From: Desulfatibacillum sp.
Lineage (GTDB): Bacteria > Desulfobacterota > Desulfobacteria > Desulfobacterales > Desulfatibacillaceae
Assembly: GCA_016342355.1 (NCBI GenBank)
Contig: JAEINP010000044.1
Span: 1-40,304 of the forward strand
DNA: 40,304 nucleotides
Direction of reading: 5' to 3'
Positions 3,356 to 36,138 of this stretch are shown in pieces. Position numbers and translations under genes: made by a program. The notes beneath the pieces were generated by a model. It had not been told where the DNA came from and did no database searches. It saw only the letters and a program-made list of their open reading frames with translations. How positions within the stretch are numbered: the first letter of the stretch is position 1; every line of letters begins with the position of its first letter.

Positions 3356-4036
3356 ATGCCCAAAAATCCCCGCACACCCGCTGAGGTGGAGGCATTCCGG
3401 GAAAAAATCCTGGAGCAGGCCATGGACCTCATCTCCCGCAAGGGATTTGAAGGCTTTAGCATGCGCAAGCTCTCCCTGGGCCTGGGAATCGCCGCAAAAA
3501 CCATTTATAATTATTACAAAAACAAGGATGAGCTCTACCTGGCCATCCTCACTAAGGGCTTTAACCGCCTGCACCGCCAGTGCGCCCGGGCCATGGATGC
3601 CCACGCCCTGCCCATGGACCGCATGGAGGCCATGGTCCTGGCTTTCCTGGATTTTGGTCTCCGGGAAGCCAATTCGTACAACCTCATGTTCACCTGGCAT
3701 GTCCCCAAATACAACGATTACGTGGGGAGCGACATGGAGCCCGTGGCCCTGGTGGAACTCCAGGCCGCCATGCGGGTGGTGGACCTGTTCATCGAGGCAA
3801 TCAGGGATTGCGCCAGCCCGGGCCGTATGATGCCGGAACAAGACGCCCGAATCATCATGATTTCCTTTTTCACGCGCCTTCATGGATTTATCGCAAGTCA
3901 TAACAATACCTTGCTTCAATATATGCACTCCAGTCCCCTGGATCTGATTCCCGCTGTGCGGGAACAAATCAAGGAGGAATTCGCCCGGAACCTGGAAAAA
4001 TTCCAGGTCCCGGAACGTTCCGTTTCCACCTCATAG
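3356..4036 (+). CDS. TetR-family transcriptional regulator
   Basis: The protein has 226 residues. The N-terminal helix-turn-helix is clear: FREKILEQAMDLISRKGFEG, then MRKLSLGLGIAAKTIYNYYK with the TIYNYYKNKDEL recognition-helix string at about residues 50-60. The C-terminal half is a ligand-binding domain that looks like the WHG type. The gene is the first of four plus-strand genes. The GRE activase starts 12 bases after its stop. It probably represses its own operon through the palindromes at 3269-3295. The hydrophobic content and SCP2/SDR neighbours suggest a lipid-like or acyl effector, but that is inference. Confidence 0.88.
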   Translation: MPKNPRTPAEVEAFREKILEQAMDLISRKGFEGFSMRKLSLGLGIAAKTIYNYYKNKDELYLAILTKGFNRLHRQCARAMDAHALPMDRMEAMVLAFLDFGLREANSYNLMFTWHVPKYNDYVGSDMEPVALVELQAAMRVVDLFIEAIRDCASPGRMMPEQDARIIMISFFTRLHGFIASHNNTLLQYMHSSPLDLIPAVREQIKEEFARNLEKFQVPERSVSTS

Positions 4037-4048
4037 GAGTAATTAACC

Positions 4049-4966
4049 ATGAAAGACCCTTTGATTTTGGACATCAAAGGCAATTCCCTGGACGACGGCC
4101 CGGGCATCCGCTCGGTGGTCTTTTTCAAGGGCTGCCCCCTGTCCTGCCTGTGGTGCCATAACCCGGAAAGCAAAAGGCGGGATACGGAAATCTCCTATGA
4201 TCCCAAGGATTGCGTCCATTGCAACACCTGCCTGGAAACCTGCCAGGAAAAGGCCCTGTCCCCGGATCATCCTTTTTTTATAGATCGGGAAAAATGCGCC
4301 CTGTGCATGGCTTGCGTGGACGCCTGCCCATCCGGCGCTTTGTCCCGGGTGGGAAAACCCATGGCCGTCGAGGAAATTGTCAGGGAAGTGGCCAAAGACA
4401 AGCCTTTTTTTAATACCTCCGGCGGAGGGGTGACCCTTTCGGGCGGCGAACCCACCCTGTTCATGGATTATTTGGGCCAGCTCGTGCAATCGTTCCAGGA
4501 TCAGGGCGTCCACACCCTGCTGGAAACCTGCGGCCTGTTTGGCCTTGAGGATTTTCTCGGTAAGGTTTATCCTTATCTCAATACCATCTACATGGACATC
4601 AAGTTGATGGAGAACTCTGCCCACAAGGAGTATTGCGGAGCTTCCAATGATGTTATTTTGCACAATTTCAGGGAATTGAATAAACGTTACCAGGATGGAG
4701 GCATCGAAATCCTGCCCCGGACCCCCCTGGTTCCAGGCATCACGGACACGGAAGAGAACATCCAGGCCATTATCGGGTTCTATAAGGAATGCGGTGTCAA
4801 AAAAGCCCAGGTCCTGCCTTATCATCCCTTGTGGCAGGAAAAGAATTTCAAGATCGGAATCCGCGATTACCGGGGTGAAACCCGGGCCATGCAGTCCTTT
4901 CTGGATAAAAACCGGCTCCAGGCCTGCCGGGACGCCTTTATGGCGGCCGATATCCAACTTGTCTGA
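4049..4966 (+). CDS. Glycyl radical enzyme activating enzyme (radical SAM)
   Basis: The protein has 305 residues. The radical-SAM cluster motif C-x3-C-x2-C is GCPLSCLWCHNPE, with C29, C33 and C36. Two ferredoxin-type [4Fe-4S] motifs follow, C55/C58/C61/C65 and C83/C86/C89/C93, each closing with a C-x-x-(K/G)-AL string. GGGVTLSGGEP at about 125-135 is the SAM-binding GGE region. This two-ferredoxin architecture is typical of activases for eliminase-class GREs such as glycerol dehydratase and choline lyase, rather than the short PflA type. It should install the glycyl radical on the GRE encoded 41 bases downstream. AGGAG precedes the start. Oxygen sensitivity is expected. Confidence 0.94.
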   Translation: MKDPLILDIKGNSLDDGPGIRSVVFFKGCPLSCLWCHNPESKRRDTEISYDPKDCVHCNTCLETCQEKALSPDHPFFIDREKCALCMACVDACPSGALSRVGKPMAVEEIVREVAKDKPFFNTSGGGVTLSGGEPTLFMDYLGQLVQSFQDQGVHTLLETCGLFGLEDFLGKVYPYLNTIYMDIKLMENSAHKEYCGASNDVILHNFRELNKRYQDGGIEILPRTPLVPGITDTEENIQAIIGFYKECGVKKAQVLPYHPLWQEKNFKIGIRDYRGETRAMQSFLDKNRLQACRDAFMAADIQLV

Positions 4967-5007
4967 TCCCTTTTTCCGGGCATAGCCCGCCACGGAGGTA
5001 TAGAGCC

Positions 5008-8000
5008 ATGCTGATGGAATTCCAATCCAACAACGCGTCCCTGCCCCAACCCAGGTTTCTCCTGACCAACCTGCTTATGAAAAACCTGCTCAGGCTTATG
5101 GCATTGAATTTCAACCTCAGGCCCAGCCTGAATCAATATTTAAAAAGCAACGAAGGCTGGTTGAATTTCAGCGCCAGCCTCCGCACGGAAAACCTTAGCG
5201 TGAACACGGCCATTGTGTTCAAGGACGGCAAGGCGTCCGTCCCCGGAACACCGCCCGAACCCTGCGATATCGCCCTGATCTTCCGGGACGACAAGACGGT
5301 CCGCAAACTCCTGAGCAACACACCCACGGAACAAATCTTCATGCTCATGAAAAGCGAACTCCGGGCCAAGGGCAACATGACTTATGTTAATCTTCTGTTT
5401 TTCCTCCTTAATCTACTGCTGAAGAAAAAAACCCTCAAATTGATGGAAAAGGAAAAACAAGCCTCGGCCAAACAGGCCCGGGAACTGGTCCCCCAATCCC
5501 GCCCCGAGCTAAGCCAGGTCTTGGAGGACCGGAAGAACCACCGCCTTCAGGGAAAGCCCACAGACCCGGGCGTACATTTTTTGGAAGATCCCTATTTGTC
5601 CGCCTTTTCCCTCCAGGATTTTCCCCGGCTTGGCCGTTTTTTGGATATCCATTTTACACAAAAAGCCGAAGTCTGTCCGGAACGGCCTAAAATCCTCACA
5701 GACTGGTTTAAGACGCACGGGTTCGAGAAAAACAGCCAGGGCAAGGACTGGATTCCCGAGCTCCGCCAGGGCTTGGCTTTCAAGCATCTCATGGAAAACC
5801 GCCGGCCCATCATCCGCAAGGACGACCTCATTGCAGGCACCACCACCACCAAAGAAATCGGCGTGGTGGTCTATCCCGACTCCCATGGGACCATGCTGTG
5901 GGGCGAGCTGTACACCGTGCCCCACCGGGCCTTGAACCCCTACGATATTTCCGAGGAAACCGTCCGCCTGCTCCATCACGATGTTTTTCCTTATTTTGCG
6001 CACAGGAATTTCAAGGAATGGGTGAGAGACAAATACCAGGCCCCTTTGTGTCAGGCCATCGACGAACGTTACGCCGTGTATTTCATCTGGAAGCAGGCGG
6101 CCTTGTCCCACACCATCCCCGACTTTCCCAAAATCCTTTCTATGGGGACAACGGGGATCATTCAGGAGATCCGGGAGAAACTTGTCCGGGAAGGCCTGTC
6201 AGCCCACGAACAAGCCACCTTGGAAGGCATGATCCTGTGCCTGGAAGGCCTGACAGTCTATTCCCAAAACCTGGCCAGCCAAGCCGCTTTTGAAGCCAAC
6301 AAGGAATCCGACCCTCAGCGCAAGGCCGAGCTGGAAAACCTTGCCGCCATATGCTCCCAGGTAGTGGAAAGGCCCGCCCGCACCCTGGACGAGGCCGTGA
6401 ACGCCATGTGGATCACCTGGGTGGGCCTGCATATGGAAAACACCAACGCAGGGCTTTCCCTGGGGCGCCTGGACCAATGGCTTCAGCCCTATTTTGAGGC
6501 GGATTTGCAAAATATTTCCCAGGGAGAAGAGCGGGGAGCCTATATCAGGCACGCCATCGAACTCATCGGTTGCTTTTACATGCGTTGCACCGATCACCTG
6601 CCCCTGACCCCGGACCTTGCCAACTGGTATTTTGGGGGAAGCTCCTCGGACCAGGCCATCACCCTGGGCGGCGTCACCCCCGCAGGCGAGGACGGGGTGA
6701 ACGACATGACCTACATCTTCCTGAAAGTCACGGAGATGCTGGCCATCCGCGATCCCAACATCAACGCCCGGTACAACCGGGAAAAAAACAGCGAAACCTA
6801 CTTAAAACGCCTGTGCGAGGTCAACCTCATCACCACGGCCACGCCTTCCCTCCACAGCGATCAGGCGGTCATGGAATCCCTGGAGGAATTCAATTACGCC
6901 CGGGAGGATTTGAACAACTGGTCCGCCACCGGCTGCGTGGAGCCCACCCTGTCAGGACGCCATATCGGCCACACCAATTTCCAGATGATGAACATGGTGG
7001 CGGCCCTGGAAATGGCCCTGAACAACGGCCTCCATCCCCTCATGAACTGGAATTTGGGACCGGAAACCGGCGCGGTGGAACAAGGCGCCTTCAAAACCTT
7101 TGACGATTTTTTTGAGGCCTTCACCAAGCAATTCGCCTTTCTCATCGACCAGTCTGTGGCCTATAACAACATGCTGGGCAAGGCCCATCAGGCCATTCGG
7201 CCCACCCCGCTTTTGTCTTCGCTCATCGAAGACTGCATCACCGACGCCGCGGATGTGACCCACGGCGGAGCAAGGTACAACAGCTCTGGAGCAGCCTGCA
7301 TTGGTTTGGCGGACGTCACCGACTCCCTGCTGGTTATCAAAAAAATGGTTTATGAAGACAAGTCTGTCAGTTTTTCAGACCTGAAAAACGCCGTAGCCGA
7401 CAATTTCCAGTCCGAGCCCGCACTCCATGCCCTGGTCACCAAAAAGGTTCCCTTGTTCGGATCAGGCAGCGACGAAGCCGTGGCCATGGCCGACCGGGTT
7501 ACCAAATTCGCCCACGACCATTATGGAAGCCACACCAATTACAGGGGCGGCAAATACACGGTGGGTTTCTGGTCCATGTCCAACCATGTGATTTACGGCA
7601 CCCTCAGCGGAGCCCTGCCCTCGGGCAAGCTGGCGGGCAAACCCTTCACTCCGGGCCTCACGCCACAGCCCATCGCCTCCCAGAACCTGTTGGACAACAT
7701 CCGGGACGTGGCCAGGCTTAATCCCAAAAACATGAACAACAACATCGCCTTTAACGTTAAAATCGTACCCGGCCCCAACGACTCCCACGAGCAGGTGGTC
7801 AACAACATGTTTTCCTACGTCAAAACCTATTTTGACCTGGGAGGCATGCAAATGCAGTTGAACGCCGTCACCTCGGATACCTTAAAGGACGCCATGGCCA
7901 ACCCGGAGAATTACCGCAACCTGTTGGTCCGGATTTCCGGGTACAACGCCTATTTTGTCACCCTCAACAGGGACATGCAGTTGGAACTGATCGAAAGGGC

Positions 8001-8016
8001 CCAGTACGGGCTTTAG
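5008..8016 (+). CDS. SCP2-domain glycyl radical enzyme (eliminase class, substrate unknown)
   Basis: The protein has 1002 residues, about 150-200 longer than ordinary GREs. Residues about 25-135 look like an SCP2 sterol/lipid-carrier domain: AIVFKDGKASV near 68 and LMKSELRAKGNMTYVN near 112-127, with long Leu-rich helices. From about 205-220 (ERPKILTDWFK) a full pyruvate-formate-lyase-like barrel follows. The catalytic thiyl motif is GCVEP with C643 and E645. This CxE pattern marks eliminases (glycerol dehydratase, choline TMA-lyase, hydroxyproline dehydratase, isethionate lyase) and is absent from PFL and from alkyl/benzylsuccinate synthases. The radical glycine is G978 in RISGYNAYF, 24 residues from the C-terminus. 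GGAGGT precedes the ATG. The substrate is unknown; the lipid-carrier domain and the SDR partner point to a long-chain hydroxylated or amino-alcohol compound. Confidence 0.9.
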   Translation: MLMEFQSNNASLPQPRFLLTNLLMKNLLRLMALNFNLRPSLNQYLKSNEGWLNFSASLRTENLSVNTAIVFKDGKASVPGTPPEPCDIALIFRDDKTVRKLLSNTPTEQIFMLMKSELRAKGNMTYVNLLFFLLNLLLKKKTLKLMEKEKQASAKQARELVPQSRPELSQVLEDRKNHRLQGKPTDPGVHFLEDPYLSAFSLQDFPRLGRFLDIHFTQKAEVCPERPKILTDWFKTHGFEKNSQGKDWIPELRQGLAFKHLMENRRPIIRKDDLIAGTTTTKEIGVVVYPDSHGTMLWGELYTVPHRALNPYDISEETVRLLHHDVFPYFAHRNFKEWVRDKYQAPLCQAIDERYAVYFIWKQAALSHTIPDFPKILSMGTTGIIQEIREKLVREGLSAHEQATLEGMILCLEGLTVYSQNLASQAAFEANKESDPQRKAELENLAAICSQVVERPARTLDEAVNAMWITWVGLHMENTNAGLSLGRLDQWLQPYFEADLQNISQGEERGAYIRHAIELIGCFYMRCTDHLPLTPDLANWYFGGSSSDQAITLGGVTPAGEDGVNDMTYIFLKVTEMLAIRDPNINARYNREKNSETYLKRLCEVNLITTATPSLHSDQAVMESLEEFNYAREDLNNWSATGCVEPTLSGRHIGHTNFQMMNMVAALEMALNNGLHPLMNWNLGPETGAVEQGAFKTFDDFFEAFTKQFAFLIDQSVAYNNMLGKAHQAIRPTPLLSSLIEDCITDAADVTHGGARYNSSGAACIGLADVTDSLLVIKKMVYEDKSVSFSDLKNAVADNFQSEPALHALVTKKVPLFGSGSDEAVAMADRVTKFAHDHYGSHTNYRGGKYTVGFWSMSNHVIYGTLSGALPSGKLAGKPFTPGLTPQPIASQNLLDNIRDVARLNPKNMNNNIAFNVKIVPGPNDSHEQVVNNMFSYVKTYFDLGGMQMQLNAVTSDTLKDAMANPENYRNLLVRISGYNAYFVTLNRDMQLELIERAQYGL

Positions 8017-8028
8017 GAAAGGAACCAC

Positions 8029-8847
8029 ATGAAAGATCTCCATGGAAAACAGGCCTATATCACAGGGGGCTCCAGCGGCATCGGCCTGGAAACCGCCCGG
8101 CAACTGGCGGCCAAGGGTTGCCACATCACCCTTTTTGCCCGGGACTCCCAAAAGCTGGAAAAGGCCCGGCAGCTCATCCTCAATTTCCGCAAGGCCCAGG
8201 CCCAGAAGGTGGAAATCTTCCCCATGGACGTGACCAACCCCCAGGGCGTGGAAGATGCCATAAAAGCTGCTGTGGAAGCCGCGGGGCCGCCGGACATTGT
8301 CATCGCCAACGCAGGCCAGGGCCACGGGGATTATTTTGAAAACACCACTTACGCCATCTTTGATAGAGTTCTTCAAACCAATGTGTACGGCGTCCGTAAC
8401 GTGGTGGCTTCCTCGCTTCCCTATTTGCAGGAAAAACAAGGGCATGTGGTGATTGTGGCCTCCCTGGGGGGCATGGCGGCCATGCCGGGATACACGGCTT
8501 ACGGAACCTCCAAGTTTGCTGCGGTGGGCTTTGCAAAATGCCTGCGACCCGAGTTAAAAACCAAGGGCATAGGCCTTACCCTGGTTTGCCCGCCCGAGGT
8601 TCCCACCCCCATGGTGGACGAGGAAATCCAGACCCTGCCCAAGGAATTCCGGGCTGTAAAGCTCATGGCCGGAATCCAGTCTGTGGAGCAGGTTTCCCGC
8701 ACCATTGTCCGGGGCATTGAGAAAAACCGGTTTGTGGTCATTCCGGGATTTTTGGCCAAGGCCTCTTACGCCCTGGTCAAGTTCCTGCCTGGTCTGCTTA
8801 GTAACTGGGTTACTGATCTGATGGTCCGACAACACTCAAAAAGTTAA
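8029..8847 (+). CDS. Short-chain dehydrogenase, 3-ketodihydrosphingosine reductase-like
   Basis: The protein has 272 residues. The cofactor motif TGGSSGIG lies at 13-19 with preceding strand QAYI. ITLFARD places Arg at 38 after the second strand, favouring NADP(H). NAG is at 94-96. The catalytic triad is S145, Y158, K162 (YGTSK). The segment after the active site, VCPPEVPTPMVDEE, matches the YPPDTDTP region that characterises 3-ketodihydrosphingosine reductases. A hydrophobic C-terminal tail (about 240-260) could contact the membrane. The gene starts 12 bases after the GRE stop and ends at a strong terminator, so it is the last gene of the operon. It probably processes the carbonyl product or makes the hydroxylated substrate of the GRE. 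Sphingoid specificity is a resemblance, not proven. Confidence 0.85.
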   Translation: MKDLHGKQAYITGGSSGIGLETARQLAAKGCHITLFARDSQKLEKARQLILNFRKAQAQKVEIFPMDVTNPQGVEDAIKAAVEAAGPPDIVIANAGQGHGDYFENTTYAIFDRVLQTNVYGVRNVVASSLPYLQEKQGHVVIVASLGGMAAMPGYTAYGTSKFAAVGFAKCLRPELKTKGIGLTLVCPPEVPTPMVDEEIQTLPKEFRAVKLMAGIQSVEQVSRTIVRGIEKNRFVVIPGFLAKASYALVKFLPGLLSNWVTDLMVRQHSKS

Positions 8848-16235: not shown

Positions 16236-17246
16236 TCAGGAGTTCTGCCAGTTGGCCCCTTTGCCGGACACGGTGTACAGGCCTTCCTTATACGGGGTGG
16301 GGATCTGGGAAATCCTGAGTTCCAACTCGGCCCATTGGCGTTCCGAAAAACTATGGAGCACCCGGGAAATGGCAATTTTATCATTGGTGGCGCAAGGAAC
16401 CGGGACAAAGGAAAAATCCCGCCAATGTGGCTGATCATCATTTTTTCCCGCAGGCTTCGCCACGGTCGCCAGTCGCATGCCTTTTTTAAGGCTTTGGTTT
16501 TCTATTTGTTTGGCGGGATATTTCGCCACCCTGATTGCAGGGTATTTTCCCTGGTCTTTAGCCAGGTTCATGGCCACGGCGATCAAGGGCGGCGTGGCGG
16601 ATATGACCATGGCCGGAGCGGCTTTGGCGTTTCTGAACCGGGCATATACGGAGTTCCAGTACAGGAGTTTGGTAACAAGACATCCTGCCAGCAGCAGGGC
16701 GCCCATCAGGAAGGAATAGAAAACCGTGATGAGGACCGGCGGAACCCAGCAAAGGGCGATCACCGCAGGCCACAGAGGATAATGTTTTATCCAGACCATG
16801 GGGTTGATCCGCACCTTGGGCATTTTGGGGCGGCGGGGCTGGAAATCCGGGGAGGATTCCTCCTTTTGTTCGTCCGCATCCCTGGCCCGTAGGAGCGGTT
16901 CCTGGACAGGGGAGGGGATTTCCGGGGCTTGTTTGGGCATGTCCTCCGGTTCCTCATGAAGGGGGATGACCTGGCCGGTGCTCTCGTCCACAATGAACTC
17001 GGCGCCGTCCGGGTAATCCAGGTAATGGACCACGCCGGGATTATGCTCCACGATGGTTCTGAGCCCCACGGTTACGTAGTTCTCTATATTTCCGCTATAA
17101 TTTGCATCTTCATTGCCGAATAAAAAAACCCAGCCCGAAAGTACGCCCTCTTCCGGGGCTGCGCGAAGAAAGTGGCGGATTTGAAAGCCGTTGGCCAGCA
17201 CGACTTTTGAAACCATACATTGTTTTTGATCATCCATGGACTGCAT
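16236..17246 (-). CDS. Membrane protein with DUF2185 (Imm33-like) and DUF3239-like domains
   Basis: The protein has 336 residues. The N-terminal 100 residues resemble DUF2185, the Imm33-type immunity domain: MVSKVVLANGF, LSGWVFLFGNEDANYSGN, and a YLDYPDGAEFIVD strand pair. A charged proline-rich linker (about 100-145) leads to two close hydrophobic helices (about 157-192, PLWPAVIALCW and FLMGALLLAGC). The soluble C-terminal part, WRDFSFVPVPCATN through YKEGLYTV, looks like DUF3239. The ATG at 17246 is preferred over an in-frame TTG one codon earlier. It is the last gene of a four-gene minus-strand operon, 34 bp after the phosphatase. The role is unknown; the immunity-type domain may simply be a ligand-binding module. 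Confidence 0.65.
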   Translation of the reverse strand: MQSMDDQKQCMVSKVVLANGFQIRHFLRAAPEEGVLSGWVFLFGNEDANYSGNIENYVTVGLRTIVEHNPGVVHYLDYPDGAEFIVDESTGQVIPLHEEPEDMPKQAPEIPSPVQEPLLRARDADEQKEESSPDFQPRRPKMPKVRINPMVWIKHYPLWPAVIALCWVPPVLITVFYSFLMGALLLAGCLVTKLLYWNSVYARFRNAKAAPAMVISATPPLIAVAMNLAKDQGKYPAIRVAKYPAKQIENQSLKKGMRLATVAKPAGKNDDQPHWRDFSFVPVPCATNDKIAISRVLHSFSERQWAELELRISQIPTPYKEGLYTVSGKGANWQNS

Positions 17247-17283
17247 CAAACTTCCCTTTGCAAAACAGCATTTGGAGTCGAAT

Positions 17284-18420
17284 TTACTCCGTTATCTTTG
17301 TGTTTTCAAACCTGACTTTCAGCCGCTGTTCCAGGCTTTGGGGCAGGAATACGGAAATACTGTGGTTCATTTCCACATATTTTCCCGAAATATCAACCTG
17401 AAAATAGATATGGTGGATGTTCCCTTCCCTTTGGGAGTCCGGGTGAACCTGGAGCGACAGGGAGGGAACCCCGAAGCCCTTTGAATTTATGAGCACACGG
17501 CTCTCCTCTTGGGGGAGAAACCGGGTTTCTGTCTTGTCCGGGATGAAATTGGTATGCACCACCAGTTCCGTGACTGTGGGAGTGATTTTCAGTAGCTTTT
17601 TGTAAGTTTCAAAAAAAGGCCTGCGTGAAAAATATGAGGACGAAACACTGACGGCCAGGACCAGGACGATTGCCCCGAAGATCAGTTTTTTCAGCAGGGA
17701 AATCCTTTGAATCTCTCTTGTTTCGGGAGTTTCGGGGATTTTTAGCACCAGATAATAAAGGGCCGTGGCCACCGCAAGGTTGAGTCCGGCGGACCAGGTC
17801 ACGTCTGTTAAAAAATGGGCGCCCTGAACCACCCGGGTGGCGCCCATGAGGGCTCCGAAACCCAGGCTTGCCACGCCAATGCCAAAGGCCGCGCGGGATT
17901 TTTTCCGGAAAAACAACAGGGGGACAAAGGCAAAGCCCATGGCGGCATGGCCGCTGGGAAAACTCTGGCCCTGGCCCGGGGTCCCGGGGCTGTAGGCGTG
18001 GTGGTATTGCCATTCCCCGCCGAATTCCGTGATTTCCGAAGGGCGGGGCCTGCCCCAATAGGGTTTAAGAAAAGCATTGACAAGGATTCCGCTGGAAATC
18101 ACCCCGGTGAGAAAAACAAGCAGCATGTATCGGCGCCATTTGATCAGACCGGTGTAAAAATAGCTTCCGAACCACAAACCCAGACCGCCCAGGAGAAAAA
18201 GCACTCCCGGCAGGGTTCCCTGGTGGTACATCCACAGCCAGGGTTCTTTTTCAGCCAGGAAAAAGCCCTGGCCCGGTTCATAAAACAGGCCTGAGACCTT
18301 TCTGTCCAAATCCAGGAAAGACACCAGGGCCGTGAACAGGATAAGGACCAGGGCGATGCCCGCCAGGGCGAGCATCCCCCTTTTACGGTAATCGGTTTGT
18401 ATGGGATCTGTTGTGGTCAC
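17284..18420 (-). CDS. PAP2-family membrane phosphatase with soluble C-terminal domain
   Basis: The protein has 378 residues. The three PAP2 motifs are present: K119-x4-R124PRP, PSGH at 155-158, and the third motif with T195-R196-x5-H202-x3-D206 (TR in place of the usual SR). About six membrane helices lie between 15 and 265. It should remove phosphate from a lipid phosphate such as phosphatidic acid, undecaprenyl diphosphate or lipid A. After the last helix (about 248-268) come some 110 extra residues with beta-strand character (VTELVVHTNFIPD, SISVFLPQSLEQRL), probably periplasmic. That extension is unusual for the family. The gene is third in the TetR-activase operon, 30 bp after the activase. 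Confidence 0.87.
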   Translation of the reverse strand: MTTTDPIQTDYRKRGMLALAGIALVLILFTALVSFLDLDRKVSGLFYEPGQGFFLAEKEPWLWMYHQGTLPGVLFLLGGLGLWFGSYFYTGLIKWRRYMLLVFLTGVISSGILVNAFLKPYWGRPRPSEITEFGGEWQYHHAYSPGTPGQGQSFPSGHAAMGFAFVPLLFFRKKSRAAFGIGVASLGFGALMGATRVVQGAHFLTDVTWSAGLNLAVATALYYLVLKIPETPETREIQRISLLKKLIFGAIVLVLAVSVSSSYFSRRPFFETYKKLLKITPTVTELVVHTNFIPDKTETRFLPQEESRVLINSKGFGVPSLSLQVHPDSQREGNIHHIYFQVDISGKYVEMNHSISVFLPQSLEQRLKVRFENTKITE

Positions 18421-18450
18421 GTGGCTTCTTCCGGCTATTATTTCGGAGTA

Positions 18451-21400
18451 TTAATGCAACTCCCTATTCATAGCCATTTTATCGTGAAGCCGCAAGGCCC
18501 TGAGGCAAAAGGCCTCCAATTTTGCTTCAATAACCTGTGGAAAGGGAGAACCATCGCTTTCAATCGCCAAAAAGGGCAGGGTTTCCGAATCGCTAAGGAC
18601 CCTGCTTAGTTTTCCGTTGCCGGAGGTGAGGCTGATTTTATGTTCCCGGGTCATGGACCGGGCCATGATGGATTCGGAAATCCGGTTGGGCATGCATCCG
18701 AAAGGTCCGATAGCTATGGCGCCACAGGTTTGGGAACCCACCTCGTACAGGGCGCTGCCCACGGTAAGGACGGCCTCGCCCGTGAGGTTTTCGGAAATAA
18801 AGGCCGTGGCGCAGTTCATGATTCCCTTCATGTCCACGGTATGGGCCGACACCAAGCCGCTGGTGGCCAGCCATTCTTTGATGCGTTTTTCGTTGTGGGC
18901 TAAAAAGCGTTTTTTAAAGGCCAGGCGGATTTTGTCCGTGCGGCTTACCGCCCCCTCCACCAAGCCCTTTTCCACCAGATAGTTGGAATAAATGATCCAT
19001 TCGGCAATGGGGGAACACCGCACGGCGATTCCTTTTTCCGCCAGGCCTTCGGTCAGCCTCCGGCGGGACAGGGAGTCCCTGCGCACGTAGATTTCTCCCA
19101 CCAGGGAGATCACAGGAACCCGGGCCGGATCAAGTTTGCGGGGTATGGCGCCCAGGATTTTCGCCGTGGACAACGCCTGCTTTTTCAGGCCGAAAAAATT
19201 TCTGTTTTCCAAGGCTGTGAGGAGTTTTTTCCATTCCTTTTCAAAAACATCCATGGCAAAAGCGGGGTCTTTAGCGCTGGCCAGGAGCATGGAGCGCATA
19301 TCCTCCATGACATCAGCCACGACCACGCACCTGTATGCCCAAGCCTGAAAACCGCCGCCCATACCGGCGTAAGCGTTTTCGGAGGTGAGGGAAAACAGGG
19401 CCACATTGGGGATTTCCCGTTTTTTGATCAGGTCCTCCATGAAGATGTGGTACTGGCCGAATCGGCAGGGACCCGAAGCGGTGGGCATGAAATAAATGAG
19501 TATTTCATCCTCCCTCATCTCCCGTTTCACATAACTGAGCAGGGTGCCTGTGGTGAGGATAAGGGGCAGGCATTCCTTGCAGGAAGTGTTTGCCCGGCCC
19601 AGTTTCAGGATGCGTTCGTCCGAGGGTGGGTGGGCAATGGCGTTCAGGCCCATGCCCCGGAAAGCGGCCGCGGCTGCTTCACTGGATATCTTGCCCATGG
19701 AAGGGAGCATGAAGGTGACCCGGGGATCACGCCAGGACAATTTTTCTCCATGGGAGGTGGTGACAAAAGGCGTCCTTTTATCCAAGCCCACCAAGGCTGG
19801 GGTGAAGGGTTTGGGGGGCGCTGTGAGGGTGTCATAGCGTGTCAGTTGCCGGTACGAGGCCACAATGTCCAGAAAGGCCTCAATGCGTGTTTCCAGGCCT
19901 GCGTCTGCCGAATGGCTGTCCAGCTCCAGGGTCAGGGAGGGTTTCCGGCCCATGATGTCCCTGAAATAGCCCACCACAAAGGAGTCCGGCCCGCAGGAAA
20001 AGTTCGTAATAAAGGTCCCGAATAACTGGGGGTGTTTTTTGACGAACCGGGCTGCTTTGAGAATGAGCTGGCCCATGCCCCAGTACATGTGGCGTTTTGT
20101 GCGCTCCCCTTCCAGGGGCAAAAAGTCAAAGGGGATGACCATGACCCCCCGGGAGGCGATTTTGTGGGGAATACCCATGTGGGCTTCGGAAACGAATCCG
20201 TTATAGGGCCGGGCAAACAGGGCCACGGCTGCCAAGGCGGGATCTTTTTCCAAGACCTGCAAGGCCTTGGCGCCCAGGGCCTTCATTTCGTCCATGCATT
20301 GGGACTGGATAACCAGAGCCTTGTCAAAGGCCTCACCGGCTTCGCTGCGGGGAATGCCGATTTCATGGACGGCCTCCACCATGGCCGCCTTGGCGGCCTG
20401 GACTCCCTTGGAAAAATCCAGGGTGGGGGTCAGCATTTTCATACCTTTTTCTTCCAGATTTTGGATTTCCCCGGAAAAGGTGGCCTTTAGAAAAAATGGC
20501 TCTCCCTGAACAAAGGGGCAGACCTGGGAGGATTTGTATCCATTGGTAATGGAGATTGCCTTGAAATGGGGCAGGAAGATGTAGTCCGGCGCGGGATCGC
20601 TTTGGATGAGGGTGTGAAAAAACCCATGGGCCAGTTCGCCGGGATAGCAAAAGGCGGCCTCCCTGGCGTCAATCCCCTTTTGCGAGGGGACATCCGGCGC
20701 CACCGGGGCAATGCCCAGGTTGGCGAAAAAATGGGAGTACAGGGGATAGTAGGTGTTTGTCAAAAAGCTCCGGTTAATGCCCACCGTGCCCCGGCGGATT
20801 CCCTGCCGGGCTGTTCCCTGAGGCGCCCCGTATTTTTCAAAGACCAGTTCCTGGCGTTTGCGCACCAGATCCAGCTCCCTGACATCATAATTGATTTCCC
20901 TGCGGAGGTTGTAATAGCGGTTGCAGGCGCCCCCGAAGGGGTATTTTTTAGCGTCGATTTCTATAACCGCAATTTCGCATGCCCGGTCGCATTTTTCCTT
21001 GCCGCCCTTGCATATAAAGGGCTTTTTGTAGACCACATCCCGGTCCGCCAGGGTTTTGAGGTCAAAGGATTGGCGGGCCATAAGGCCTTGGAGGATTTTT
21101 TCCTGCACAGCCAGGGCCACGCCAAAGGCCCCCATGAGGCCGGGTTCCGGAGGAACCACGATGGGCTTGCCCACCAGGGCGGCCATGGCCAGGGGAACGG
21201 CCCGGTTGTAGCAGACGCCTCCCTGCATGAACACGCGTTCGCCCACGGTCCTGGCGCCCTTGACCCGGTTGGAGTAATTCATACAGATGGAATAGGTGAG
21301 GCCTGCCACAATGTCCTCATGGAGTACGCCTTCATGGATGGCGTTTTTTATGTCCGAGGAAATGAACGCCGCGCATTGATCGTTGAAATTGGGGGGCTTT

Positions 21401-22836
21401 AGTCCTTTCAGGGCGATGTCGGCGATGTCTTCCATTTTCACGCCCAGGGTTTCGTAGGCCGCTTCCTCCAGAAAGGAGCCGGTGCCCGCACTGCACGCCT
21501 CGTTCATGGCATAGTCGGAGGGTACGCCGTTGGTGAGCCAGGTGTATTTGGCATCCTGGCCGCCGATTTCAAAAATGGTGTCCACTTTGGGGTCAAAATG
21601 GACGGCAGCCGTGGCGTGGGCGATGATCTCGTTGATCACCCCATACGTGAGGGCGTGGAGTCCTGCGATCTGGCGGCCGGAGCCGCACACGCCCAGGCCG
21701 ATGATGGAAATGGCGTCGTTGGAAACCCGTTGTTCCACCTGATTCAAAATGGCTTGGTAGCATTGGCGGGAGGCCCCCACGGGGTCACCGTTGGTGCGGA
21801 GGTACACCGAAGCCAGCATGGCTTTGTCGCGGGTTCTCAGCAACACGGCCTTGGTGGTGGTGGAACCCACGTCCAGGCCCAGGATGCATTCGTCCTGTTC
21901 TTCCACCTGGCCGGTGGTCATGGTTTTGAAATGGACCTGGGGTTCGTATTTGGCCAAAGGTTCCAGGACATCCATGATCGTGGCGCTTAAGTTGATGAGG
22001 CCATCCATGCCGGGAAAAGCGAGGGTTTGGTTTTCCAGGCCCCAAAGGGCGGCCCCGATGGCCTCGAAGCAGGAGGCATGGTCCGGGATGACCAGGTCGG
22101 TGATTTCCTTTTTGAGATAATGGACCATCATCTGGTTTTGGGAGGTGCCACCCGTAAGCATGATGCGGTCCCGGCCCACCTTTTTCAGGAGTTCCAGGAT
22201 TTTATTGGCCATCATCTGACACAAACCGGCCGTAACCCGGGATTTGGGTATGCCTTTGTTGGTGGCATGGGTGCAGTCGGATTTGCAGAACACGCTGCAA
22301 CGGCCTGAAACATGATGGGGTGTTTCGGTGGCGGCCCAGGTGGCGGCTTCTTCCAGGGTTACGTTCATGCGCCGGATTTGCTGGAGGAAAAATTCGCCCG
22401 TGCCCGAGGCGCATTTGTTGCCGGTGAGCACGTTGGAAACCTGGCCTGCCTGGTTGATCTGGTAGACCATAAAGGTCTCGCCCCCTGCCGACACCACGGC
22501 TTGGCAAGGGTCTCCCTGAGGCTTGAGAAACCGGTAGGCTGCTTCCACAGCCTCGGGTTCGGGAATGGAGGTCAGGTTCAAGAGGTTGCGGAGGCGCCGA
22601 CCGGTGACGGTTATCCGGTCGTAGGCATCCAGGTCGAACTTTTCCAGGGCCTGGAGCAGGGTGGCCCTGGGGTTTCCTTCATGGGACAGGGCCAGTGTGT
22701 TTTCCACCCGGGGAGGGGCGTCTGGCTGTCCCAGGATAGATACAATCGTAATGGTGGAGGCGCCCAGGCACAGGCCCAAAGAGCGCGTGATTTGGGAAGG
22801 GTCTTTGTTTTCCTTGGTCATTTTTTTAGTATCCAT
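18451..22836 (-). CDS. Acyl-CoA dehydratase activase-type fusion protein (two BadF/BcrA ATPase domains + DUF2229 + HgdB-like)
   Basis: The protein has about 1460 residues. Two ASKHA ATPase domains come first. One is near 20-275, with conserved cysteines in NKCASGTGEF and GRCSVFCKSDC. The second is near 315-590, starting at LGLDVGSTTTK and containing EACSAGTGSFLEE and DQCAAFISSD. Then comes a DUF2229 region (CDRACEIAVIEI, GGACNRYYNLRR, CYPGELAHGFF) and an HgdB-like C-terminal half (FSCGPDSF, LELDSHSADAG, CKECLPL). The family couples ATP hydrolysis to low-potential electron transfer, as in 2-hydroxyglutaryl-CoA dehydratase activation or benzoyl-CoA reduction. No separate dehydratase subunit is encoded nearby. 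The ATG at 22836 has AAGGA nine bases upstream; an in-frame ATG three codons earlier abuts that signal. The gene is 33 bp after tetR. Confidence 0.88.
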   Translation of the reverse strand: MDTKKMTKENKDPSQITRSLGLCLGASTITIVSILGQPDAPPRVENTLALSHEGNPRATLLQALEKFDLDAYDRITVTGRRLRNLLNLTSIPEPEAVEAAYRFLKPQGDPCQAVVSAGGETFMVYQINQAGQVSNVLTGNKCASGTGEFFLQQIRRMNVTLEEAATWAATETPHHVSGRCSVFCKSDCTHATNKGIPKSRVTAGLCQMMANKILELLKKVGRDRIMLTGGTSQNQMMVHYLKKEITDLVIPDHASCFEAIGAALWGLENQTLAFPGMDGLINLSATIMDVLEPLAKYEPQVHFKTMTTGQVEEQDECILGLDVGSTTTKAVLLRTRDKAMLASVYLRTNGDPVGASRQCYQAILNQVEQRVSNDAISIIGLGVCGSGRQIAGLHALTYGVINEIIAHATAAVHFDPKVDTIFEIGGQDAKYTWLTNGVPSDYAMNEACSAGTGSFLEEAAYETLGVKMEDIADIALKGLKPPNFNDQCAAFISSDIKNAIHEGVLHEDIVAGLTYSICMNYSNRVKGARTVGERVFMQGGVCYNRAVPLAMAALVGKPIVVPPEPGLMGAFGVALAVQEKILQGLMARQSFDLKTLADRDVVYKKPFICKGGKEKCDRACEIAVIEIDAKKYPFGGACNRYYNLRREINYDVRELDLVRKRQELVFEKYGAPQGTARQGIRRGTVGINRSFLTNTYYPLYSHFFANLGIAPVAPDVPSQKGIDAREAAFCYPGELAHGFFHTLIQSDPAPDYIFLPHFKAISITNGYKSSQVCPFVQGEPFFLKATFSGEIQNLEEKGMKMLTPTLDFSKGVQAAKAAMVEAVHEIGIPRSEAGEAFDKALVIQSQCMDEMKALGAKALQVLEKDPALAAVALFARPYNGFVSEAHMGIPHKIASRGVMVIPFDFLPLEGERTKRHMYWGMGQLILKAARFVKKHPQLFGTFITNFSCGPDSFVVGYFRDIMGRKPSLTLELDSHSADAGLETRIEAFLDIVASYRQLTRYDTLTAPPKPFTPALVGLDKRTPFVTTSHGEKLSWRDPRVTFMLPSMGKISSEAAAAAFRGMGLNAIAHPPSDERILKLGRANTSCKECLPLILTTGTLLSYVKREMREDEILIYFMPTASGPCRFGQYHIFMEDLIKKREIPNVALFSLTSENAYAGMGGGFQAWAYRCVVVADVMEDMRSMLLASAKDPAFAMDVFEKEWKKLLTALENRNFFGLKKQALSTAKILGAIPRKLDPARVPVISLVGEIYVRRDSLSRRRLTEGLAEKGIAVRCSPIAEWIIYSNYLVEKGLVEGAVSRTDKIRLAFKKRFLAHNEKRIKEWLATSGLVSAHTVDMKGIMNCATAFISENLTGEAVLTVGSALYEVGSQTCGAIAIGPFGCMPNRISESIMARSMTREHKISLTSGNGKLSRVLSDSETLPFLAIESDGSPFPQVIEAKLEAFCLRALRLHDKMAMNRELH

Positions 22837-22869
22837 AGCAGTCATTCCTTAATTTTCCTTACGGAAGAC

Positions 22870-23502
22870 TTACGGGTTTTTACACAAAAATTTTCGGATG
22901 AGCGAGTCCAGGGTTTTTTTCACATCGGCTTTGCCATAGCCCAGGTCCTCGTTGCGGGACGCCTTGATAAACAGGCCGTACAACAGCATTTCCGTGGCGC
23001 CATACAAAACCTGGCGCATGGCGCTGGGCTTCAGGGAACCATCAAAGACACCCTGGTTCTGGCCATCCCTGATGATGGTGTCGATGGTGTTGATGAATTT
23101 TCTGTTTTCGACGGTGATCTCCATCCGGGTGTCCTTGAGCTCGTCGTCGCTGATCATAAACAGGCGGGGCAGCTCCTCGATAAGGACTTTGGCCAGATAA
23201 AGGCGGTTATTATCGCGCACTAGCATGAATTCGGCCAAACGGGCCAATTCCGTAATCCGGGCCACGGGGTCGGATATGCTGGCCAGTTGATTTTCCAGTC
23301 TCTCGTTCAGGATTTTCCAGAACCGGACTGTAATGGACAGGAGAACCTGGAGCTTGCCTTTGGGAAAATAAAAATAGATGAGGCCGCTGGAAACATTCGC
23401 TCTTTTAGCAATGCGGGCCATGGTAGCATTGGCGTACCCGTTTTCGGCGATTTCCAGGGTGGCGGCATCCAGGATGCGGTTTTCTTTGGAGAGGTCGTTC
23501 AT
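22870..23502 (-). CDS. TetR-family regulator (FadR/YsiA-like)
   Basis: The protein has 210 residues. The helix-turn-helix is RILDAATLEIAENGYANATM then RIAKRANVSSGLIYFYFPKG at about residues 10-50. The C-terminal domain (YLAKVLIEELPRLFM, near 105-120) resembles the acyl-CoA-responsive FadR/YsiA branch. It is the first gene of the operon with the activase fusion, PAP2 phosphatase and DUF2185-like protein. A 22-bp palindrome at 23550-23571, 48 bp upstream of the start, is the likely autoregulatory operator. An acyl-CoA effector would fit the activase family, but that is inference. Confidence 0.86.
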   Translation of the reverse strand: MNDLSKENRILDAATLEIAENGYANATMARIAKRANVSSGLIYFYFPKGKLQVLLSITVRFWKILNERLENQLASISDPVARITELARLAEFMLVRDNNRLYLAKVLIEELPRLFMISDDELKDTRMEITVENRKFINTIDTIIRDGQNQGVFDGSLKPSAMRQVLYGATEMLLYGLFIKASRNEDLGYGKADVKKTLDSLIRKFLCKNP

Positions 23503-30839: not shown

Positions 30840-33209
30840 TTAGGGAGTGATTGCGTAGGCCCCCAGACCGTCAAAGGGGTTGATAGGGGGCGGCATTTTT
30901 GGGGGCTCGGAAAAGCGTTTGGCCAGATCCTTGTCAATGACGTATATGCAGATTTCCCGGGCGCCCTGATCTGTGTAGCCGTATTTTTTCTGCAGGTTGG
31001 CCATGAGATAGCTGACCTCTTCCCTGATGCGCCGGTCATAGGCCTTGAATGATTCGGTGTTGAAATCCTTGATGGCATGCCTGAAATTTTCGTTTTCCTG
31101 GAACGGGTCCATAACCTTTTCCTTCAGGTTGTGCACATAACGCTCCTGGAGCTTTTTATAGACGGCGGTTTGGGTGAGGGGCTTTTTTTCCAGGGCCATT
31201 TCCTGAGTCAGGGTTTTGGATGCGTACTCCCTTTGGGTATCCTGGCGGAAGGCGTGACGGGCTATTTCGGTAGTGCCGCTTCCCATGATCCTTTGTTCCA
31301 TGCCCGTCAGATAGGCTTCGGTGATTTCCAGGCTTTCCCCGGTGTACACGCATTTTTGCTCCCGCCCTATTTCAAAATTGATGGCAAAGAGATAGTTCTG
31401 GATATCCATGGAAATCCTGTCTTCGTTATAATAGTACAGGGATTCCTTGACCTCCTGAAGCAGCATGTAATTGTAGGAATCCACCAGGGAGTCCATGAAT
31501 CCTTCCGGGATGGAGACTCCAAGCTCTTTTTTCCGTTTGTTGAAAAAGTTCACCAACATATCCATGTTGATGAGCTTTCCCTTTTGAGCCGCCGCCGAGT
31601 AGAACTCGTTGAAGATATTGATGGAATCTCTTCCTGAAAATCCTGAAACGCCTTCATTTTCCGATTCCGCCACAACCCTTTTTCGCCGTTTGGAACTGAA
31701 GCTCTGTCGGTCCCGTTCGGAAAGCCAAACCGGGATGACTCCGGTATAAATGTCCATTTTCAGGAGCAGGAGGTTGCGGTCGCAAAATCTCCTGTACCGG
31801 TAGGGATCGCCTATCCATTCCAAAAGAGGTTCGGAGCTGGTTTTCATGCGGGTGGAGATGATGACCTTGGCGAAGTTCTCCAGGACCCTTGGGAGAAATC
31901 TTTTTTCTATCTGGTCTCCGAAATTGCTCTTATAGATTTTCACTTCCGTATTGTAGTCCAGCACATAGCCGATTTTTATGTAGGTGATACGGTCGGAAAA
32001 TGACAATGCCTGGTCCACCTGGCCGTGGTCCTCGGGGTTCATGAGGGCCAGGAACAGGGAGTGGACGTCTTCCTCCACGTCTTCCAGCTTGTGGACCCCT
32101 TCGCTGATGATTCCGTGCAGTGCGTTGAAACGGTATTTGTTGGCGTCCTTGATGTCCATGAGGGCGTATATACCGTTGTTGGTTTTAGCGTAACGGGAAT
32201 ACATGTAGCGAACCTGGTTGCTGCTCCGCAACAGGGAGTCCAGTTGCTGTTGAAGCACCGGATTGACCAGGAGGTTGGACTTGGGAATCATGTCGGCGGG
32301 ATTGAACACACTGATGCCTTCTCCCAGCCTGCGGTTGAACTGGTAGGGTTTGGCGAACACCATTTTAAAGACCTTAGCCGGAGAGCCCAGGACGTCCAGG
32401 AGGGAGCGGAACAGGGAGGAACAGATGGTGCAGGGGTTGTCCCTATATATCCACTGGTATTGTTTTTGGTTGAGGACCTTTTTTCGGATATCCGGGTCGT
32501 CAATCAGCTCTTCCATCAATTCCCGGCGGTAATTCTTGGGGATTTGCATGATGGGATGATCGTGGTTGGGGCAAGGCACCTGGAGGAAATTCTTGTTGGT
32601 CAGGGCCGCCAGATCCGCCCCTTTGACCGGGGACGCCCCCCTCACGCCAGGGGTTTCCACCAGACTTTTCAGTTGTTTGAGCAGTGCGGCGGCTTCAATT
32701 TCACTGGCGCCCAGTTCGTTTTTATCAATGCGCCAAAGGGTTTCGTAGTTGATGCCCCGGGAGGTTTTTGTGTACTGTTCGAATTTCATCAAGAGGTTGT
32801 TCAAAAAGGTGCTTTTGCCGCTGCCGTGGGGCCCCTCGAAAATATAGATGCGGTTTTGGGGGATGCCTCTGCGGAAGGTGGTAACATGGTTCACAAAGCG
32901 GTTGGCAAAAAGGCGGTCCGCGAAAAAGGGGTTATCGCTCCCTTCCACAAAGAGCTTGTGGGTGTCATAATAGACGAAATTGATGGATTCGGGGTCTCCG
33001 GGATATTCATCGTCTCCTGCCCCCACATAGGAGAGGATCATGTCGTGGAACACCTGGAGGATGTTGCGGAACACCAGGTCCGGGTCCCGGGAGGCGATTT
33101 GGAGGAACAGATCCAGGGGAATGGGCGCTCCGTGCTCTTTTTCGCGGATTTTCGCGCACAGGCTGTCCAACAGGTCCTGGCTCTTTTTTGCAAATATATT
33201 TTGGTTCAT
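30840..33209 (-). CDS. PrkA-family serine protein kinase, second paralogue
   Basis: The protein has 789 residues and the P-loop is GPHGSGKS at 126-133 in an AAA-like domain. CPNHDHPIMQIP followed by CTICSSLF matches the CPxH...CPxC cysteine/histidine region of canonical PrkA/YeaG, so a zinc site is probably kept. A typical PrkA C-terminal region follows (FKAYDRRIREEV near the end). E. coli YeaG is about 640 residues, so this one is longer. The start overlaps the SpoVR stop (ATGA), showing translational coupling. I reject an upstream extension that would run back into SpoVR. Its partner kinase PrkA1 is encoded at the other end of the operon. Both kinases may phosphorylate proteins in stress or starvation. 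Confidence 0.87.
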   Translation of the reverse strand: MNQNIFAKKSQDLLDSLCAKIREKEHGAPIPLDLFLQIASRDPDLVFRNILQVFHDMILSYVGAGDDEYPGDPESINFVYYDTHKLFVEGSDNPFFADRLFANRFVNHVTTFRRGIPQNRIYIFEGPHGSGKSTFLNNLLMKFEQYTKTSRGINYETLWRIDKNELGASEIEAAALLKQLKSLVETPGVRGASPVKGADLAALTNKNFLQVPCPNHDHPIMQIPKNYRRELMEELIDDPDIRKKVLNQKQYQWIYRDNPCTICSSLFRSLLDVLGSPAKVFKMVFAKPYQFNRRLGEGISVFNPADMIPKSNLLVNPVLQQQLDSLLRSSNQVRYMYSRYAKTNNGIYALMDIKDANKYRFNALHGIISEGVHKLEDVEEDVHSLFLALMNPEDHGQVDQALSFSDRITYIKIGYVLDYNTEVKIYKSNFGDQIEKRFLPRVLENFAKVIISTRMKTSSEPLLEWIGDPYRYRRFCDRNLLLLKMDIYTGVIPVWLSERDRQSFSSKRRKRVVAESENEGVSGFSGRDSINIFNEFYSAAAQKGKLINMDMLVNFFNKRKKELGVSIPEGFMDSLVDSYNYMLLQEVKESLYYYNEDRISMDIQNYLFAINFEIGREQKCVYTGESLEITEAYLTGMEQRIMGSGTTEIARHAFRQDTQREYASKTLTQEMALEKKPLTQTAVYKKLQERYVHNLKEKVMDPFQENENFRHAIKDFNTESFKAYDRRIREEVSYLMANLQKKYGYTDQGAREICIYVIDKDLAKRFSEPPKMPPPINPFDGLGAYAITP

Positions 33210-34858: not shown

Positions 34859-36115
34859 TTATGCCATCAGCCTCCGAATGCCTTCTATCAGGCGGTCTTC
34901 GTCCGCGTTTTCGGAAAAGGTGTCCAGGCTCAGGCGGGTGGCCTGCTCGTGGAGGAGACCCGAGTTGCGAAGATAGCGCTCCACCACGGTTTTGCTTTGT
35001 CCGCCGAAATAGCGTTCGGCGATTGAAATGCCCACCCGGCTGGAGTACAGGAGCATTTTTTTGAGTTCCGGGAGGGTCTCTCTGCCGTCGGAGTCCCAGT
35101 CGTCCCCATCGGTGCCGTGGAACACATAAATGTTGTAATCCCGCTCCAGGTTTTCCTTTTCCACGATTTCGTTCACCAGTTGGTAGGCGGATTTGACCCG
35201 GGTGCCTCCGGCTACGGTGGAGCTGTAATAGGTGTGGAAGTCGTCCACTTCCTTGGCTTCGGTATCGTGGAGGATAAACCGGGTTTCCACCTGGCGGTCA
35301 TATTGGTACAGGAGCCAGCTATAGACGAGCACATGCTGGGAGACCACGGCCTCGGTGGGTTTGCCGCTCATGGACCCGGAATAGTCGCGGACGAAAAAGA
35401 CCATAGCCTGGGATTCGAAATCTTTCTCCCGGGAGACGATCCTGAAGATTCGGTCCTTAGGGCCCATCATGAGATCGCTGGTGTCGATTTCCCCGGACTC
35501 GTCAATCCTTCCCAGGGCGATGTTGGTCTTGATGATTTGCCGAAAGGTGGCCTTTTTGTCCAGGACCTGGCCGATACCCACATGCCGGTCCGTGAGGTCA
35601 TAGGTGAATTTGGTGAGGGACCGCTTTTTGCCTTTGTCCTTGAGGTTGGGAAGTTGGAATTTTTCCGTAAGGATTCTGCCCAGATCATAGGCGGAGGACT
35701 CGATTTCGTGTCCGCCGCCCTCGCCTTCCCCCGAAGCCCCTTTCCCGGACCCTGAGGACTGGTGCACGGGTTGTTCGCCGATCACATCCCCTTCCTGTCC
35801 GTCTCCCGACCCGCTGGTGGTCTGTTCTTCCTGTTCGTCCTGAGGGCGGGTGTCGTGCATGAACTTTTCTTCCACCGTGGTGGGGACCAGGATCACCTTA
35901 TCCTTGCCGCCCCGGGCGGGTTTCATAAACCGGCCTATGCGGATTTTCCGGGGAAACCCGTCCTTTTCCCTTTGGGCGTCCCGCTCCAGGAGTTCATCCA
36001 CGGAACTGAGGGTGTGGACGTAAGTCACGCCCGGGCCGGGACCCGCGGGCGGCTCTCCAGGAGAAGCGGCCATGTTCAGACCGGGGTTTTTTGTATTGTC
36101 AGGATCTTTTGCCAC
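34859..36115 (-). CDS. YeaH/YhbH family protein (DUF444, VWA-like)
   Basis: The protein has 418 residues. The first 140 residues are disordered (Gly/Ser/Glu-rich). A domain follows with TYDLTDRHVGIGQVLDKKATF near 172-192. The VWA-like C-terminal part has FFVRDYSGSM (MIDAS DxSxS), the TVAGGTRVKSAY threonine loop and HGTDGDDWDSDG (acidic loop), so metal-ion-dependent binding is likely. The family is UPF0229 and always sits with PrkA and SpoVR. The start is a GTG at 36115, with GAGG eight bases upstream. It lies 23 bp after PrkA1. Confidence 0.92.
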   Translation of the reverse strand: MAKDPDNTKNPGLNMAASPGEPPAGPGPGVTYVHTLSSVDELLERDAQREKDGFPRKIRIGRFMKPARGGKDKVILVPTTVEEKFMHDTRPQDEQEEQTTSGSGDGQEGDVIGEQPVHQSSGSGKGASGEGEGGGHEIESSAYDLGRILTEKFQLPNLKDKGKKRSLTKFTYDLTDRHVGIGQVLDKKATFRQIIKTNIALGRIDESGEIDTSDLMMGPKDRIFRIVSREKDFESQAMVFFVRDYSGSMSGKPTEAVVSQHVLVYSWLLYQYDRQVETRFILHDTEAKEVDDFHTYYSSTVAGGTRVKSAYQLVNEIVEKENLERDYNIYVFHGTDGDDWDSDGRETLPELKKMLLYSSRVGISIAERYFGGQSKTVVERYLRNSGLLHEQATRLSLDTFSENADEDRLIEGIRRLMA

Positions 36116-36138
36116 GTCCTTATCCTCGCCTGGGCAGG

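Follow-up and report, generated by a model that had tools for sequence, protein, structure and literature searches.

The window examined here is a stretch of 40,304 nucleotides (nt), positions 1 to 40,304 of contig JAEINP010000044.1 from the Desulfobacterales bacterium Desulfatibacillum sp. (assembly GCA_016342355.1). It encodes a glycyl radical enzyme (GRE) that carries a module resembling the lipid carrier SCP2 at its N-terminus, referred to below as SCP2-GRE. The open reading frame (ORF) is intact and runs through 1002 amino acids (aa) with no break. Its parts, all on the forward strand, are listed with the evidence for each.

5008..8016, + strand: SCP2-GRE fusion protein, 1002 aa (ORF, Pfam, alignment A2, full-length model)
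5062..5427, + strand: SCP2-like module, residues ~19-140 (family profile and fold matches; a separate gene beside a GRE in 13 of 15 stand-alone loci)
5428..5622, + strand: helical linker, residues ~141-205 (model helices 124-160 and 166-177)
5623..8013, + strand: GRE domain, residues ~206-1002 (PFL-like, Gly_radical and dehydratase folds in the PDB)
6109..6111, + strand: H368, at the position of glycerol dehydratase H164 (34 of 36 fused relatives have H, the other 2 have Q)
6934..6942, + strand: C643-V-E645, predicted to be the cysteine of the thiyl radical and the glutamate of the eliminases (both kept in all 36 fused relatives)
7939..7941, + strand: G978, predicted glycyl radical site (invariant in A2)

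The GRE part is complete. Pfam places a PFL-like domain at residues 219-864 (E 2.5e-163, 545.6 bits) and a Gly_radical domain at residues 881-984 (E 1.6e-22, 80.5 bits), both above their cut-offs, and the full-length predicted model has a mean predicted local distance difference test (pLDDT) of 90.9 and a predicted template modelling score (pTM) of 0.92. C643, E645 and G978 are invariant in alignment A2, whose 37 rows are the window protein and 36 relatives. The active-site loop reads GCVEP and contains the CxE motif of the eliminase class; the CMSPC-type loop of the alkyl- and benzylsuccinate synthases is not found here. An earlier note on this DNA, the original prediction, had described a complete GRE with C643/E645 and G978 and had grouped it with the eliminases on its CxE motif, and both statements hold. 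Judged from its sequence, the protein is a GRE of the CxE eliminase class, and elimination is its predicted activity.

The nature of the N-terminal module was addressed at the level of the family and of the fold. PF02036, the Pfam SCP2 family, is matched by 6 of the 24 rows of module alignment A1 (window included) at E up to 1, with a best value of 1.7e-5, while every other Pfam family matches at most one row. Two paralogues from the same genome fall on either side of the PF02036 cut-off of 21.3 bits, at 26.2 (contig C31) and, just below it, 19.6 (contig C4). When a profile of the 24 module sequences was run against the PDB, SCP2 proteins ranked first at non-significant E values of 0.66-0.78; a phmmer search with window residues 1-193 gave nothing significant, the best match being an unrelated protein at E 0.16. 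An AlphaFold model of residues 1-193 (pLDDT 76.7) is well ordered at 21-100. With this model, Foldseek retrieved UbiJ-SCP2 (6h6p) as the best match (E 5.9e-6), along with the SCP2 domains of alkylsulfatases and human SCP2, at template modelling (TM) scores by target of mostly 0.5-0.7. VIA Z scores for the module model were 10-13 over ~100-120 residues against many SCP2 entries, including 13.2 over 104 residues (rmsd 2.3) for the SCP2 domain of alkylsulfatase 4axh and 12.0-12.4 for human SCP2 entries. On the predicted model, the module at about residues 19-140 has the SCP2 fold, and lipid binding is predicted for it. The original prediction of an SCP2-type domain at about residues 25-135 is upheld by the family profile and the fold, but not by the window sequence taken alone in Pfam. 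It had named the lack of SCP2 by profile or structure as grounds for giving the idea up; family profile and predicted fold are both SCP2.

Homologues of the fusion are widespread. Among the 33 loci recovered by scanning contigs of GTDB genomes, 28 (L009-L036) are close homologues, mostly from Desulfobacteraceae and related metagenome-assembled genomes (MAGs). Other hosts among the 28 are one Syntrophaceae MAG, two Smithellaceae MAGs and one Actinomycetes MAG, which carries the fusion (L032); in both Smithellaceae matches and a few more, the contig breaks off and only the GRE part is visible. The best homologue is that of Desulfatibacillum alkenivorans DSM 16219, with 83% identity over residues 1-1002. 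The Thorarchaeota loci of the scan (L037-L041) have a GRE and an activase, and no module match was found in them. A profile of the N-terminal module matched at least 44 of 395 genomes of the phylum (E 0.001 or better), a lower bound because at most 8 candidates were scored per genome. Among 60 listed profile matches, 36 lie in frames of 909-1074 aa, of GRE or unread type (23 genomes, 8 families), 15 are stand-alone frames of 144-191 aa, 4 are in frames of 457-708 aa, and the remaining 5 include three in large non-GRE frames. A GRE was present in all 32 regions that were read out of the 36 long-frame matches, and the fusion occurs in 23 of the 395 sampled genomes. The genome of the window itself holds three fused copies (on contigs C127, C31 and C4) among 11 GRE places; its GRE listing has 12 matches, two being pieces of one gene on C46.

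The stand-alone modules tie the two parts together. All 15 of their loci, found by the module profile alone, were inspected, and in 13 the module gene directly adjoins a GRE gene on the same strand, with the activase next in 10 of the 13. The exceptions are L120, where an activase is adjacent and the 3.6-kb contig has no GRE, and L122, which has neither. Since the search used the module alone, the neighbouring GRE was not built into it. The occurrence of the module as a neighbouring gene in some lineages and as a fusion in others is strong evidence that module and GRE work together, and chance is excluded because homologues of the same architecture occur in many genomes.

Several further observations were made at these loci. 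An unannotated protein family occurs near 10 of the 13 split loci (L117, L118, L119, L121, L147-L152), its members being ~320 aa long and arranged as a tandem pair or joined into a double protein of 820 aa; the representatives from L117 and L118 had no Pfam match at E 1e-4 and no NCBIfam match at 1e-10. At L147 a single in-frame TAG, at a position that is variable, breaks the split-type GRE (4453-7062, - strand). The best pyrrolysyl-tRNA synthetase profile score in that genome is only 28.1 bits against a cut-off of 178, and the TAG is likely a broken gene or a sequence error. On contig C131 of the window's genome (L056, 4465-10663), two weak SCP2-like matches flank genes for a class-III aminotransferase and a split transketolase, near an alanine dehydrogenase-like gene and a gene judged by eye to be TetR-like; genes from the same transketolase clusters also adjoin the SCP2-GRE of L097. 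Three profile hits, L112, L113 and L114, were considered as fusions and were not counted, as they are not GREs by the GRE profile. The ~985 aa proteins of L112 and L113 (genomes G349 and G293) have a weak N-terminal match to the module profile (E ~1e-6 and 1e-5). That of L112 is a molybdopterin AhtL-like enzyme, with which the proteins of L113 and L114 cluster by BLAST; we take it to be pyrogallol-hydroxytransferase-like, in an operon that would resemble those for phloroglucinol-type degradation.

Phylogenetic analysis sets the SCP2-GREs apart from known GRE groups. Following a quick tree, a careful maximum-likelihood tree was built from the GRE part of 58 sequences, without IslA, HpfG and propanediol dehydratase and without the close relatives L011, L013, L016 and L021. 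All 33 fused rows, the window protein among them, group with the 4 split rows in a single clade (support 100/100, stem 0.84), within which the split and fused forms are sister groups (100/99 each). Outside it lie HypD (4 rows), CutC (2), HpsG (4), Escherichia coli PflD and YbiW, and glycerol dehydratase, as well as two Thorarchaeota rows, L008 of the window's genome, which we take to be MasD-type from its CMSPC loop, and the other GREs of that genome. The nearest GREs, L001 and L007 from the same genome, join the clade weakly (90/39); the backbone of the tree is weak (51/63), and long branches and uneven composition were flagged in some reference rows. The NCBIfam equivalog models give scores far from their cut-offs of 1000-1109 bits: 403 against 1100 for HypD, 380 against 1050 for CutC, 365 against 1000 for HpsG, 338 for HpfG and 357 for the PRK09983 formate acetyltransferase. 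The GRE part was thus found outside the characterised groups with small polar substrates, in a clade of its own and in a tree from which IslA is absent, rather than clustered inside one of them. Another two GREs of the window's genome (L002 and L003, contig C33), ~4 kb apart, have GCVYLE instead of CxEP and possess both GRE Pfam domains.

Among solved structures, 1,2-propanediol dehydratase, glycerol dehydratase and a GRE from Archaeoglobus come closest, with TM scores by target of mostly 0.92-0.94 at 27-29% identity, and HypD and CutC come next. The substrate pocket was compared, residue by residue, with that of glycerol dehydratase. H164 is kept, as H368. In contrast, H281 corresponds to A481 (in fused relatives A 26, T 4, S 2, D 2, V 1, I 1), S282 to G482 (G in 33 of 36), Y339 to D548 (D in 27 of 36) and D447 to N657 (N in 27 and G in 9 of 36), so the two-histidine pocket of the dehydratase is not found. 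Across the 37 SCP2-GREs, 29 positions conserved to at least 95% have a different letter in all 13 reference enzymes, among them S367, H530, W638, H652 and W855. These substitutions are consistent with dehydratase-type machinery whose substrate pocket has another lining, and its probable shape is read from the aligned residues. A481, being small where glycerol dehydratase has its second histidine, may leave room for a larger substrate.

The SCP2-GRE gene is the third of a four-gene cassette, the other members of which are given below.

3356..4036, + strand: TetR-family regulator, first gene of the cassette (TetR_N E 7.5e-12, TetR_C_33 E 9.4e-10)
4049..4966, + strand: radical S-adenosylmethionine (SAM) activating enzyme of the GRE (TIGR02494, 284.3 bits, cut-off 174.35)
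8029..8847, + strand: short-chain dehydrogenase/reductase (SDR), starting 12 nt past the GRE stop (adh_short E 6.5e-45)

The order is TetR, activase, SCP2-GRE and SDR, with gaps of 12, 41 and 12 nt. D. alkenivorans has the same four genes in the same order at 74-83% identity (75% for the SDR) and also shares a convergent phospholipase A1 gene beyond the cassette (66%). At other loci, genes were called by a longest-ORF rule and labelled by BLAST; of the 60 resulting gene runs, contig ends included, 39 contain an activase, 23 a TetR gene and 13 an SDR or extended SDR. At 36 loci the sequence extends for 5 kb or more in both directions; within the 5-kb flanks of these there is an activase at 23, TetR at 19, an SDR at 8, an AMP-binding ligase at 7 and an extended SDR at 2. 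Some relatives have an extended SDR gene located between those of the activase and the GRE. In Pfam, the proteins from L014 and L016 match Epimerase best, then 3Beta_HSD; for L014 and L019, the HpnA and then the OleD models are best, far under their cut-offs. At L010, a homologue of the classical SDR of the window is fused to a second, extended SDR (PRK07201 best, 178 of 549 bits). SDR-type partners would suit the handling of a carbonyl or an alcohol, and do not name the substrate.

Elsewhere in the window, a run on the reverse strand (16236-23502) comprises a TetR gene, a gene for a 1464-aa BcrAD_BadFG/DUF2229 protein, a PAP2 phosphatase gene and a gene for an Imm33/DUF3239 protein, and is kept as a block on contig C45 of genome G036. 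A second run on the same strand (30840-38322) contains two PrkA-type genes and a SpoVR-like gene, a common stress-related cluster.

Taken together, we give an even chance to the reading that the window protein is a diol-dehydratase-like glycyl radical eliminase whose substrate, hydrophobic and hydroxylated, is held by the SCP2 module. This reading is based on the domains, the motifs, the gene order, the tie between module and GRE and the separate clade, all of which are observed, and from which we infer the leaving group and the hydrophobic substrate. From what is known of the family, the radical-SAM activase would make the radical on G978, and the radical would then move to C643, which would take a hydrogen from the hydroxyl-bearing carbon. 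E645 and H368 may assist the departure of water, or of a different leaving group, from the adjoining carbon, so that an aldehyde or a ketone results, while the SCP2 module would hold or hand over the hydrophobic tail of the substrate. Candidate substrates are alkyl- or acylglycerols and long-chain 1,2-diols. The adjacent SDR may reduce or oxidise the carbonyl product, and the TetR protein presumably controls the cassette. The chemistry need not be new: the closest folds are 1,2-propanediol and glycerol dehydratases, so it is simpler to assume a radical dehydration of the ordinary type on an unusual substrate. In its broader form, as a lipid-handling GRE branch in which SCP2 would capture a long-chain or membrane-derived hydroxylated lipid and feed its polar end to a diol-dehydratase-type site, the proposal is a tentative one, to which we give somewhat less than an even chance. 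The alkylsulfatases set a precedent, as they too couple an SCP2 domain to a catalytic domain, which in their case works on alkyl chains (PMC5426288).

Several points weigh against a lipid-directed eliminase. The window protein alone has no match to Pfam SCP2 (PF02036) at E up to 1, both paralogues in the same genome are found without an adjacent activase or SDR, and neighbours vary widely beyond the core cassette; with an SDR or extended SDR in 13 of the 60 gene runs, the SDR step is not general. Moreover, SCP2 folds can serve as docking or structural parts. If that were the case here, the module might act as a membrane anchor, in oligomer formation or in recruiting the activase, and the GRE would turn over a small polar substrate. 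Such an arrangement would agree with a GRE fold that is that of enzymes with small polar substrates and with the polar residues D548 and N657 (each in 27 of 36 relatives), and the pocket of the module may have diverged, because Pfam does not recognise SCP2 in the window protein alone. However, the module is retained whether it is fused or split, it is predicted to adopt the SCP2 fold in the window protein, and the pocket residues as a set match no small-substrate group that was compared, which leaves a docking role doubtful in our estimate.

Two narrower alternatives keep the lipid and change the reaction or the substrate. The enzyme might be a lyase removing a group other than water from a long-chain substrate, such as an alkoxy group, a sulfonate group or, as with choline lyase, an amine. 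T656 aligns with a CutC threonine, which we take to be T502 in number and role, and one relative (L104) adjoins genes for a pyridoxal phosphate (PLP)-dependent decarboxylase and a lipid-kinase-like protein; GRE eliminases are known to cleave C-N, C-O and C-S bonds (PMC11574389). Against this, H368 is the dehydratase-type histidine where both CutC rows have D, the PLP neighbour occurs at that single locus with amino-acid decarboxylases and related enzymes as its best PDB matches, and sphingosine-phosphate lyase is absent from its 17 PDB matches at E up to 1e-6. A lyase of this kind seems improbable. The other alternative is an enzyme specific to alkyl ether lipid metabolism, for example one dehydrating 1-O-alkylglycerols, which carry a vicinal diol. 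Its background is that the membranes of two Desulfatibacillum species are described as mostly ether lipids (PMC5552659), and that alkyl ether phospholipids of D. alkenivorans and its glycerol ester reductase (Ger), stated to be 159 kDa, have been described (PMC11150832). The window has a Ger-like ORF (18451-22845) with BcrAD_BadFG and DUF2229 domains, the 1464-aa product of which would be 160.7 kDa. In G036, taken as D. alkenivorans, however, the two gene blocks are on different contigs at least ~30 kb apart, so the closeness of SCP2-GRE and Ger-like gene in the window is not conserved; and DUF2229 (PF09989) proteins are found in 288 of the 395 phylum genomes, so their co-occurrence with SCP2-GRE cannot discriminate. 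We consider this specific role very unlikely.

Other lipid classes were tried as substrates and rejected. Hopanoid polyols are unlikely in these genomes: hopene cyclase (TIGR01507, E up to 1e-20) was found in none of 28 genomes drawn from the 44 with a module-profile match, and the control matched only Bacillus subtilis, below the cut-off. Sphingoid bases were considered for L104, with its PLP decarboxylase and DAGK-type kinase, and set aside, since the two proteins resemble amino-acid decarboxylases and YegS/DgkB-type kinases best in the PDB and the arrangement was seen at a single locus. The SDR of the window matches many SDRs, with the 3-ketodihydrosphingosine reductase TSC10 last of the 28 listed.

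To our knowledge, the characterised GRE eliminases all act on small polar molecules. If the hydrophobic eliminase proposed here is correct, anaerobes would have an oxygen-free route to strip hydroxyl (or other) groups from lipids, and the organisms concerned are relatives of sulfate reducers and oil degraders. A clade tied to a lipid module across several families of the phylum would extend GRE eliminase chemistry to lipids or other hydrophobic compounds, and the defined gene cassette offers a clear biochemical test. No mention of a GRE-SCP2 combination was found in searches of open-access PMC full texts, subscription papers and preprints lying outside their scope; a fungal genomics paper, unrelated by its title, was all that they retrieved. 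The radical chemistry is of a known kind, which tempers the original prediction of a reaction unmatched by any described GRE, while the SCP2-GRE architecture and clade appear to be undescribed in the searchable open literature.

Among known systems, the B12-independent glycerol and 1,2-propanediol dehydratases (1r8w, 5i2g, 9rco) share the fold of the GRE part. The window protein keeps the Cys, the CxE motif, the Gly radical site and H164 of 1r8w; unlike these dehydratases, it has an N-terminal SCP2 module, and 1r8w falls outside the SCP2-GRE clade. CutC and HypD are likewise GRE eliminases with CxE, and their NCBIfam profiles align across the whole GRE part, but they form separate clades and the window protein is far under their equivalog cut-offs. 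MasD, an alkylsuccinate synthase, is a GRE acting on hydrophobic hydrocarbons, with the CMSPC-type loop without CxE that is typical of alkyl- and benzylsuccinate synthases, and is distant from the window protein in the tree. On the side of the module, UbiJ-SCP2, human SCP2 and the alkylsulfatase domains have the same fold, at only ~6-18% identity in structural alignments. The alkylsulfatases SdsA1, Pisa1 and SdsAP likewise join an SCP2 fold to a catalytic domain; unlike these SCP2-domain proteins, the protein described here bears the module at the N-terminus of a radical enzyme.

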